NCBI RefSeq assembly: GCF_900115955.1
Contig: NZ_FOYL01000018.1
Location: 62,001 to 126,000 of the forward strand
Reading direction: 5' to 3'
Source of the DNA: Lentzea waywayandensis
GTDB lineage: Bacteria > Actinomycetota > Actinomycetes > Mycobacteriales > Pseudonocardiaceae
Length of the DNA stretch: 64,000 nucleotides
Numbering within the stretch: the stretch's first letter is position 1; the number at the start of each line of letters is the position of its first letter. Shown here one piece after another: positions 24,417 through 50,951 of the stretch. The notes below the pieces were generated by a model. That model ran no database searches. It saw nothing but the letters and a program-made list of their open reading frames with translations, and was not told the DNA's origin. Both the position numbers and the translations under genes were made by a program.

Positions 24417-24447
24417 AAGGGCGCCCGGCCGGAGACCAGGCGCCCTT
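24417..24447. terminator. intrinsic terminator between clpX and the hydrolase operon
   Basis: A perfect 9-bp stem AAGGGCGCC/GGCGCCCTT (24417-24425 with 24439-24447) with a 13-base loop lies between the clpX 3' end and the start of the RBBP9-like hydrolase gene (24387). It probably ends clpX transcription (leftward) after the repeat element at 24456-24544. Confidence 0.6.
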
Positions 24448-24455
24448 TCGACTGT

Positions 24456-24544
24456 GCCCGGGGTCTGGGGTGTCCCCGGAGAACACGACGACGGTCTTTC
24501 AGGCGAGCGCTCTGCGCGAGCAGAACTCCCCCCAGACCGTCGCC
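24456..24544. repeat. structured repeat element, copy 1, 3' of clpX
   Basis: Copy 1 of a repeat described further at 26032-26234. It has a CTGGGG-type module (24456-24479), a variable outer stem (24487-24497 with 24534-24544, ten of eleven positions paired) and a conserved core near GGCGAGCGCTCTGCGCGAGC (24502-24521). It ends two bases before the clpX stop codon, so it is at the 3' end of the clpX message. Confidence 0.65.
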
Positions 24545-24546
24545 GT

Positions 24547-25827
24547 CTAAGCGGACTTCTCCCGACGCTCCCGGCGCGAGGGCTGCCGGGCCACGATGGT
24601 CGGGTTCACGTTCTCCTTCACCGTCTGCTCGGTGATGACGACCTTGGCGACGTCCGTGCGGCTCGGGATGTCGTACATCACGGGCAGCAGGACCTCTTCC
24701 ATGATCGCCCGGAGGCCACGAGCACCGGTCCCGCGCAGGATCGCCTGATCAGCGATCGCTTCGAGCGCGGTCTTGGTGAACTCGAGCTCGACGCCGTCCA
24801 TCTCGAAGAGCTTCTGGTACTGCTTCACCAGAGCGTTCTTCGGCTCGGTGAGGATCATCACCAGCGACGGCTTGTCGAGGTTCGTGACGGAGGCGACCAT
24901 CGGCAGACGCCCGATGAACTCGGGGATCAGACCGAACTTGATCAGGTCCTCCGGCATGGAGTCGGCGAAGAAGTCCGACGCCTCCACCTCGGCCTTGGAG
25001 CGGACCTCGGCACCGAAGCCCAGGCCTCGCTTGCCGACGCGGTCCTGGATGATCTTCTCCAGGCCTGCGAACGCACCCGCCACGATGAACAGCACGTTCG
25101 TCGTGTCGATCTGGATGAACTCCTGGTGCGGGTGCTTGCGGCCGCCCTGCGGTGGCACCGACGCCGTGGTGCCTTCCAGGATCTTGAGCAACGCCTGCTG
25201 GACGCCCTCACCGGAGACATCGCGCGTGATCGACGGGTTTTCACTCTTCCGAGCGATCTTGTCGACCTCGTCGATGTAGATGATGCCCGTCTCGGCGCGC
25301 TTCACGTCGTAGTCGGCGGCCTGGATGAGCTTCAGGAGGATGTTCTCGACGTCCTCACCGACGTACCCGGCCTCCGTCAGCGCCGTCGCGTCGGCGATGG
25401 CGAACGGCACGTTGAGCATCTTCGCGAGCGTCTGCGCGAGGTAGGTCTTGCCGCACCCCGTCGGGCCGAGCATCAGGATGTTCGACTTCGCCAGCTCGAC
25501 GCCGTCGTCACGACCCTCGCGCCCGCGGTCGCCCGCCTGGATGCGCTTGTAGTGGTTGTAGACGGCGACGGACAGGGTGCGCTTGGCGTCACTCTGGCCG
25601 ATGACGTACTGGTCGAGGAACTCGTGGATCTCGGCGGGCTTCGGCAGCTCGTCGAGCTTCACGTCACCGGCTTCGGCCAGCTCCTCCTCGATGATCTCGT
25701 TGCAGAGATCGATGCACTCATCGCAGATGTAAACGCCGGGGCCGGCGATGAGCTTCTTCACCTGCTTTTGGCTCTTTCCGCAGAAAGAGCACTTCAGCAA
25801 GTCGCCGCCGTCACCGATACGCGCCAT
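24547..25827 (-). CDS. clpX: ATP-dependent Clp protease ATPase subunit ClpX
   Basis: A 426-residue AAA+ unfoldase that feeds substrates to ClpP1P2. The N-terminal zinc-binding domain has C13, C16, C35 and C38. Walker A is GPTGCGKT (121-128) and Walker B IIYIDE (182-187). The pore-loop and sensor regions are typical of ClpX. The ATG at 25827 ([17 protein letters not shown]) is the family start; the frame is open 24 codons further upstream. Usually essential in actinobacteria. The clpP2 stop is 412 bp upstream, separated by repeats. Confidence 0.98.
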
Positions 25828-26031
25828 GACCGCTGACCTATGTCCCCTCCGGCGCACACCTGCTGTAGTGCGCCTGCTGACTTGCTGTGGCAGTCCCACT
25901 GGCTGTGGGTGCTGAGCCCGTTCTCCTGACGGTACCTGGCCGACCCCGTTTCAGGGGAGGACCAGCGTCCCCCCGACGCGCCGATCAGGCCAGATAACCG
26001 GTCACGTCGGCGTGTCGGGTGGGCGCGAAGT

Positions 26032-26114
26032 GCCCGGGGTGTGGGGTGTCCCCACAGGTAACACCGGGCGGAGGACGAGGCGAGCGCTCTTGGCGAGCAC
26101 TCGTTCGCCCTCCG
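26032..26114. repeat. structured repeat element, copy 2
   Basis: Module GTGTGGGGTGTCCCCAC-type hairpin (26032-26054), outer stem CGGAGG (26069-26074) with CCTCCG (26109-26114), inner ACGAG/CTCGT, and core GGCGAGCGCTCTTGGCGAGC (26079-26098). The outer stem sequence differs from copies 1 and 4 but still pairs. Confidence 0.65.
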
Positions 26115-26117
26115 GTC

Positions 26118-26142
26118 GCCCGGGCTCTGGGGTTTCCCAGAG
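26118..26142. repeat. structured repeat element, copy 3 (module only)
   Basis: Only the first module is present. CTCTGGG and CCCAGAG close a hairpin around GTTT. The core and outer stem are missing, so it is a partial copy between copies 2 and 4. Confidence 0.5.
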
Positions 26143-26152
26143 CATGGGCACC

Positions 26153-26234
26153 GACCCGGGGTCTGGGGTGTCCCCAGCATCACCGGGAGGCGGATGGGCG
26201 AGCGCTCTTCGCGAGCACACCTCGCCTGTCCGCC
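26153..26234. repeat. structured repeat element, copy 4, at the clpP2 3' end
   Basis: Module CCGGGGTCTGGGGTGTCCCC (within 26153-26177), outer stem GGCGGA (26189-26194) with TCCGCC (26229-26234), and core GGCGAGCGCTCTTCGCGAGC (26197-26216). It ends five bases before the clpP2 stop, mirroring copy 1 at clpX. Confidence 0.65.
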
Positions 26235-26239
26235 GTCGC

Positions 26240-26869
26240 TCAGGACTTGGCGGAAAGCTTGCGGTAGGGCAGCACCGTGTCGACGATGCCGTACTCCCTG
26301 GCCTCCTCGGCCGTCAGGATCCGGTCGCGCTCGATGCTCTCGCGGACCTCCTCTGCCGTCCGGTTCGTGTGCCGCGCGAGGGTGGACTCCATCAGGCGGC
26401 GCACGCGCTGGATCTCGTTCGACTGGATCTCCAGGTCGGACACCTGACCGTACGCGCCCTCCATCGAAGGCTGGTGGATCAGGATTCGCGCGTTGGGCAG
26501 TGCGTGGCGCTTACCAGGCGTTCCAGCGGCCAGCAGCACGGCCGCGGCGGAGGCCGCCTGGCCGAGGCAGTACGTCTGGATGTCGGGGCGGACGAACTGC
26601 ATCGTGTCGTAGATGGCCATCAGCGAGGTGAACGAGCCACCCGGCGAGTTGATGTACATCAGGATGTCGCGGTCGGGGTCCTCGGACTCGAGCACCAGCA
26701 GCTGCGCCATGACGTCGTTCGCCGAAGCGTCGTCAACCTGCACGCCGAGGAAGATGATGCGCTCCTCGAAGAGCTTGTTGTACGGATTCGACTCCTTCAT
26801 GCCATAGCTGGTGCGCTCGACGAACGACGGCAGCACGTACCGCGACTGCGGCAGGTGGAACTGGCTCAC
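26240..26869 (-). CDS. clpP2: ATP-dependent Clp protease proteolytic subunit ClpP2
   Basis: A 209-residue serine protease subunit. Catalytic triad S107 (GQAASAAA), H132 ([10 protein letters not shown]) and D182 (ERDRI), inferred by alignment to known ClpP. It partners ClpP1 and ClpX. It is 20 bp downstream of clpP1 in a leftward operon. The two-subunit arrangement is normal for actinobacteria. Confidence 0.96.
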
Positions 26870-50714: not shown

Positions 50715-50785
50715 GCGGGCGTAGCTCAATGGTAGAGCCCTAGTCTTCCAAACTAGCTACGCGGGTTCGATTCCCGTCGCCCGCT
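50715..50785 (+). tRNA. tRNA-Gly (TCC anticodon)
   Basis: A 71-nt cloverleaf. Acceptor GCGGGCG/CGCCCGC, anticodon stem CTAGT/ACTAG with loop CTTCCAA (anticodon TCC), T-arm GGGTTCGATTCCC. CCA is not encoded. A terminator follows at 50793-50836. Confidence 0.95.
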
Positions 50786-50792
50786 CGCGGCC

Positions 50793-50836
50793 GAGGCCGA
50801 CCCATGTCTGCGGAGAACGCAGACCGGGTCGGCCTC
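50793..50836 (+). terminator. tRNA-Gly terminator
   Basis: GAGGCCGACCC (50793-50803) pairs with GGGTCGGCCTC (50826-50836), extended inside by GTCTGC/GCAGAC; TCGCCTTTT follows. Confidence 0.85.
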
Positions 50837-50885
50837 TCGCCTTTTGTCTGGGGGCCAAGCCCCCAGGCCCCCGGCCGGGGCGGTC

Positions 50886-50948
50886 CCCGGACCCCCATAT
50901 GAGCTCCCCGGACTCCCAATATGAGCTCCCCGGACCTCCATATGAGCT
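50886..50948. repeat. tandem ATATGAGCT repeat
   Basis: Three units with ATATGAGCT at 50897-50905, 50919-50927 and 50940-50948 (22- and 21-base spacing), separated by CCCCGGAC-type spacers. The repeat ends three bases before the stop of the NAD(P)-binding protein gene. Just upstream is a GC-rich hairpin run (50847-50885). Confidence 0.75.
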
Positions 50949-50951
50949 AGG

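Follow-up and report, generated by a model that had tools for sequence, protein, structure and literature searches.

Short two-hairpin DNA elements just 3' of clpX and clpP2 in Lentzea waywayandensis probably aid the ending of transcription

Short DNA elements composed of two hairpins lie just 3' of clpX and clpP2 in Lentzea waywayandensis and probably aid the ending of transcription there. They were found in a stretch of 64,000 nucleotides (assembly GCF_900115955.1, contig NZ_FOYL01000018.1, positions 62,001 to 126,000), hereafter the window. We established the anatomy of the element, its family, its position and orientation, the linkage of its two hairpins (SL1 and SL2) and its insertion into an otherwise intact open reading frame (ORF). 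From sequence comparison, we consider it rather likely that this is a mobile element with its own terminator, partly fixed behind stable-RNA genes and polymorphic behind mRNAs.

Anatomy of the copies in the clp region

Repeat search and model R1, composed of 15 genus copies out of six genomes, located three copies of the element in the window, all on the minus strand, which is the sense strand of the clp genes. Each copy consists of SL1, a long variable stem-loop, followed on that strand by SL2 of the form xxGGGGACACCCCxx + ACCCC. The features of the region are as follows.

24417..24447, minus strand: native terminator-like hairpin at the clpX 3' end, GAAAGGGCGCC..GGGCGCCCTTC (repeat search)
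24456-24546, minus strand: copy 1 overall, directly after clpX
24456..24481, minus strand: copy 1 SL2, mini-hairpin GGGGACACCCC and C-rich tail (repeat search, R1)
24485..24546, minus strand: copy 1 SL1, stem-loop starting directly after the clpX stop (fold and sequence)
24547..25827, minus strand: clpX, stop codon 24547-24549
26031-26113, minus strand: copy 2 overall, within the clpP2-clpX spacer
26031..26056, minus strand: copy 2 SL2 and C-rich tail (repeat search, R1)
26070..26113, minus strand: copy 2 SL1 (fold)
26124..26143, minus strand: native hairpin of the clpP2-clpX spacer, not an element copy (by eye)
26152-26234, minus strand: clpP2 copy overall (copy 4 of the initial annotation)
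26152..26178, minus strand: clpP2 copy SL2 and C-rich tail (repeat search, R1)
26189..26234, minus strand: clpP2 copy SL1, five bases past the clpP2 stop (fold)
26240..26869, minus strand: clpP2 (ClpP family; number taken from gene order and the initial annotation), stop codon 26240-26242

SL2 is GGGGACACCCC with mostly paired flanks and the tail ACCCCGG. The outer stem of SL1 differs in each copy and pairs in each, as the initial annotation had stated. That annotation had counted a partial copy besides three full ones; the three stand, and the partial one (26124-26143) is the native spacer hairpin, GSSCTGGGAAACCCCAGSSC-type hairpins being visible by eye at this place in element-free genomes. 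Hairpins like the native one at the clpX 3' end were also seen by eye in genomes without the element. Paired substitutions in the mini-hairpin, claimed earlier, were present in copy 2 (TGT/ACA) and in the clpP2 copy (CT/AG) and not in copy 1, whose SL2 flank carries a C x A mismatch when read in sense and T-G when read on the plus strand. A distance of two to five bases from the clp stop codons applies to the clpP2 copy and not to copy 1. With one mismatch allowed, the core GGCGAGCGCTCTTCGCGAGC, previously described as conserved, has four occurrences in the genome, namely the three window copies and a copy at prfB. Copy 2 is flanked on either side by CCCGGGC (by eye).

The SL2 parts detected by repeat search and R1 span 24448-24491, 26024-26067, and 26146-26189 (E 1e-12, 5e-11, and 6e-11, respectively); the three copies match R1 by construction, because the model was built from them and 12 other copies. 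Folds of the sense RNA were more stable than those of dinucleotide shuffles, with z of -3.95 for copy 1, -5.09 for copy 2, and -2.44 for the clpP2 copy. The corresponding plus-strand values were -1.49, -2.68, and -3.30; the plus strand therefore folds better in the clpP2 copy. A stable hairpin 3' of genes in the sense orientation, as in intrinsic (Rho-independent) terminators, was found here.

Short and long forms in the genus

Allowing one mismatch, a search for the short form, GGGGACACCCCNNACCCCGG, found it seven times in the window genome; the reversed-pattern control gave no match there and two over all 150 genomes searched. Apart from the three window copies, the four others follow rpsI, ispG, a tRNA and, at a distance of ~160 nt, a 680-aa ORF. 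An antisense reading of site A (C23:348889) relative to its neighbours was wrong, since this ORF ends ~160 nt upstream in the sense direction. An eighth, more diverged copy was recognised by eye 3' of prfB. Protein-coding genes preceding short copies were clpX, clpP2, rpsI, ispG, prfB, and smpB. When 150 candidates per genome were scored in a first pass, a model search of this and related genomes, as proposed earlier, gave R1 matches at E 1e-5 or below in 18 of the 24 genomes of the genus; this number includes the six source genomes. Weaker matches pointed to a long form, TCTGGGGGCNNNGCCCCCAGACCCC, which with up to two mismatches occurred in all 24 genus genomes (reversed control 0); these counts include a separate CTCTG repeat.

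A single family for all GGGGGC hairpins was rejected: copies with the CTCTG loop and copies of family f20 (see below) are other repeats. A different dispersed repeat, GGGGGC(T/G/A)CTGCCCCCAGACCCC, was observed in genome G000 outside the window, with 20 exact matches. Within the 14 loci read (L164, L166-L170, L173-L177, L179, L180, and L182), ~100 similar bases follow (CGGCAATCTGATCGGGGG...); some are at contig ends. None of the loci of this repeat was within 300 nt 3' of a tRNA.

Long form behind stable-RNA genes

Exact GGGGGCNNNGCCCCCNNACCCC, which has the longer SL2, was present, in any context, in 59 of the 120 genomes searched in the family, representing 29 of 46 sampled genera, with one match in the reversed control. 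ARAGORN placed a tRNA upstream in 14 of the 30 family GGGGGCNNNGCCCCCNNACCCC loci listed, and a tRNA-Thr/Met unit carries the element in five genomes of three genera. In named genomes, the exact 26-mer was found in 105 stretches, 80 of which were listed. Among these 80 loci, 53 follow a stable-RNA gene: 41 a tRNA and six a tmRNA (ARAGORN), three a 5S rRNA (L237, L255, and L267) and three an SRP RNA (L251, L269, and L305), the last two classes coming from an Rfam check of the remaining 33. At the 41 tRNA and six tmRNA loci, the 26-mer begins 47–64 nt from the RNA 3' end. The other 27 listed loci had no RNA family directly upstream according to ARAGORN and Rfam. Over the element itself, Rfam matched nothing in the 33 further loci, and at gathering score it returned two tRNAs only from the window despite the element copies present.

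Titles of 74 of the 80 listed loci name taxa that we take to be Pseudonocardiaceae. The remaining six are Rhodococcus rhodnii (three), Streptomyces, Actinoplanes, and 'Nocardia' sp. NRRL S-836. The loci titled Rhodococcus rhodnii NRRL B-16535 (L236, L301, and L311) carry the Pseudonocardiaceae form, and the record may be misassigned; the 'Nocardia' locus (L264) has its context in common with Lentzea loci. In the class sample, 15 of 148 genomes matched, the window genome included. Seven of the 14 others were from a single family, f20, with a different repeat not near tRNAs. Four loci in three further families are located 52–144 nt after a tRNA, and the arrangement is therefore not strictly confined to one family. 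Family f20, which resembles Streptomyces, has the same core hairpin and ACCCC inside another repeat (L347-L353 and L356-L366), in many cases as ..CCCTTCCCGTCCC - core - CGCTCCTCAAACGCCGGAGGGGCTG, with no tRNA up to 200 nt upstream.

Linkage of SL1 and SL2 at tRNA ends

The window also holds a long-form element behind a tRNA gene.

50715..50785, plus strand: tRNA gene (Rfam)
50793..50836, plus strand: SL1 with apex GCGGAGAACGC, after this tRNA
50847..50868, plus strand: long-form SL2 TCTGGGGGCCAAGCCCCCAGG, after this tRNA (R1 match, E 0.001)
50871..50896, plus strand: SL3, second GC hairpin with ACCCCC tail (by eye)

A short repeat, ATATGAGCTCCCCGGAC, was noticed by eye at 50897-50950 after this element.

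The 66 tRNA matches of the window genome were grouped into 54 units (60-nt gap), and all 3' flanks were scanned. SL2 was found in the sense orientation at 12 of the 54 unit ends and in antisense at none; mononucleotide shuffles gave 19 of 10,800. A 13th, degenerate site (L414) was recognised by eye and included. With up to three mismatches allowed and flanking pairs required, the scan for the SL1 apex GCGGAAAGCGC gave matches at 11 of the 13 SL2 sites and at none of the other 41 units (Fisher p 8e-10). Since the apex occurs with SL2 and never without it, SL1 and SL2 constitute one unit. Many of the 41 units lacking SL2 have an unrelated hairpin at the same place (by eye), and by virtue of the linkage SL1 occupies the place of that hairpin.

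Covariation

Because the copies were gathered through the core, only the SL2 flanks are informative on covariation. In the 15 genus copies, the two flank pairs had seven and five double-sided changes, and 94.3% of cells were paired compared with 84.6% in shuffles, none of 500 reaching the observed value. Of the five measures, two (the number of pairs changed and further pair types) were not above shuffles. For SL1 of tRNA-Glu (12 orthologous sequences), four pairs showed double-sided change and 99.7% of cells were paired, none of 500 shuffles reaching these values. Among nine orthologues of the clpP2 site, two pairs with double-sided change were not above column shuffles, 197 of 500 of which were as high on the covariation score and 160 of 500 on cells paired. 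The compensatory argument previously drawn from the window copies alone is therefore weaker than claimed; structural selection is partly supported, by the genus SL2 (three of five measures) and by the tRNA-Glu SL1, not by the clpP2 orthologues.

SL1 contained 236 G-U pairs in sense vs. 34 in antisense; this asymmetry was rejected as evidence for RNA because shuffles largely reproduce it (252 vs. 74). A switch by alternative GTGTCC/GGACAC pairing was also rejected: a GTGTYYTCT-like stretch precedes many long-form SL2 without GGACAC.

Insertion polymorphism

At the clpP2 site, the element was present in 10 of 23 genomes and missing from 13 (by eye; G160 not included). Among the filled sites, SL1 is degenerate in G166 and SL2 in G152. 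A tree was built from clpX together with clpP2 and its 1,500 upstream bases. On it, G151/G159 and G152/G164 are sister pairs with good support whose members differ in the state of this site, which indicates repeated gains or losses. The clpX site was filled in four of 24 genomes (by eye; one partly N).

The gene after smpB encodes a Pfam Amidohydro_2 protein and overlaps the smpB stop. Of 24 genomes, 18 have its ORF (MALVDVHVHFMP...) intact at 275 aa; it is altered in G156 (141 aa) and replaced by other sequence in three. The element breaks it at codon 10, after MALVDIHVH, in G007 and G105, leaving 12 and 13 aa. The intact ORF being the common state, this argues for insertion behind smpB, not loss, and placement is therefore not only behind terminators. 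The two genomes share the exact position, which may reflect one event with later losses or transfer. The insertions of 80 and 81 bp replace two bp of the empty site (net 78–79 bp), and no target duplication was seen there by eye.

At clpX, a direct repeat of ~17–18 bp was seen by eye in G155, G007, and G159; at these loci (L384, L379, and L375, the last partly N) the clpX 3' end is present as a direct copy on each side of the element and as an inverted copy inside it. In the available text of PMC3733652 and PMC2817692, IS200/IS605 transposition leaves no larger target duplication, which fits the smpB site and not the clpX site.

One quite doubtful extension, suggested by the sequence arrangement, is that the mobile terminator may take its outer stem from the site into which it inserts. 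At the clpX 3' end of G155, the order is target - apex - reverse complement of target - SL2 - target (by eye): the 5' arm of SL1 is the host coding end and the 3' arm its inverted copy, a pattern decayed in G007 and partly N in G159. Copy 2 fits weakly (CCCGGGC - apex - GCCCGG - SL2 - CCCGGGC), and copy 1 and the smpB insertions show no such pattern. Were this the rule, copying by foldback during insertion would explain how outer stems can be wholly different yet paired.

Proposed mechanism and alternatives

The element would act as a two-hairpin unit: SL1, a long GC stem with a conserved GCGGAAAGCGC-like apex, and, ~10–20 nt further, SL2, a GC hairpin followed by ACCCC, to which the long form often adds a similar third hairpin. 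At sense 3' ends, SL1 would fold in the nascent RNA and stop or pause RNA polymerase. The U-tract appears weak, with a mean of 2.0 U among the first 10 nt past SL1 (107 sites), below the 3–4 U reported for Streptomyces terminators in the available text of PMC12207403. The 25 nt before SL2 had T fractions of 0.28 and 0.33 vs. A fractions of 0.09 and 0.12. From its position and from known actinobacterial terminators, as far as the text available describes them (PMC8269248, PMC12207403), we infer that SL1 ends transcription despite this U-tract. More tentatively, SL2 and SL3 just downstream might block read-through as a fail-safe second stop or barrier. The unit would insert whole, presumably moved by an enzyme, being long retained at stable-RNA genes of Pseudonocardiaceae and polymorphic behind clpP2, clpX, and smpB. 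The earlier suggestion of a terminator or REP/MITE-like element is thus partly supported, by position, sense orientation, SL1 in the terminator place and insertion polymorphism.

It is unlikely, in our estimate, that the element is a purely selfish REP/MITE-like repeat that accrues behind genes as harmless sites and has no terminator role. Presence/absence differences at three sites and the interrupted ORF would suit such a repeat, as would the other terminator-like hairpin that follows the element at clpX and rpsI in the window genome, where the element may therefore be redundant. Evidence against a selfish repeat comes from the single orientation at tRNA ends of the window genome, SL1 at the expected place of the tRNA terminator and the tRNA-Thr/Met unit carrying the element across three genera. 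A 3' stabiliser of mRNA or other RNA, or a barrier to post-transcriptional processing, as proposed for some REPs, is very unlikely: the hairpins are very stable and in the sense 3' position, but stabilisation makes little sense at tRNA and 5S genes, because their trailers are normally removed. It is also very unlikely that a protein such as gyrase binds the element as double-stranded DNA at strongly transcribed units, as in E. coli BIMEs; the units preceding the element are usually highly expressed, and in other sets Watson-Crick pairs predominate at the SL2 flanks and G-U or A-C cells are few, but the paired substitutions seen from copy to copy point to a foldback structure instead of a fixed site.

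Relation to known systems and significance

A mobile element with its own terminator, the reading we prefer, has likenesses in several known systems, compared here on the available text of the cited reports. It resembles U-poor or I-shaped intrinsic terminators of GC-rich actinobacteria (PMC8269248, PMC12207403) in the long GC stem, the putative transcript 3' end and the apparently weak U-tract, and differs in the conserved apex and second hairpin common to unrelated genes and in insertion as a unit. Like REP/RAYT sequences (PMC3733652, PMC2817692), which are short palindromic repeats often downstream of genes and thought mobile, it is repeated, but most members have no GTAG or CGTC tag, copies are far fewer and they are tied to tRNA, 5S, and tmRNA 3' ends; in the available text of PMC3733652, GTAG and CGTC repeats are listed in other phyla, not actinobacteria. 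Up to 60 nt downstream, GTAG was present in 9 of 30, 5 of 33, and 11 of 79 cases (shuffles 2.8, 4.8, and 7.9) and in 0 of 28 short forms (4.2), and CGTC was at or below shuffles except in the short form (15 of 28; 9.8), so that no tag of the GTAG/CGTC class marks one end of nearly all members. DNA uptake sequences of Neisseria and Pasteurellaceae (PMC1852404) are likewise a repeated family co-opted as terminators, but form one hairpin from closely spaced complementary 9–11-mers, in contrast to the two-hairpin unit of ~80–100 bp. Bacterial MITEs (PMC10969869) are also short non-coding mobile repeats; neither shared terminal inverted repeats nor a constant target duplication was seen by eye at the sites compared. 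No description of the element was found in the open-licence PMC literature consulted in its available text, from which absence elsewhere does not follow.

If the proposed mechanism is true, an element that is still moving would end the transcription of tRNA, 5S, and housekeeping genes in an antibiotic-producing actinobacterial family. It would represent a natural experiment on the origin and spread of terminators and would supply genera whose U-tracts are poor with candidates for strong terminators.
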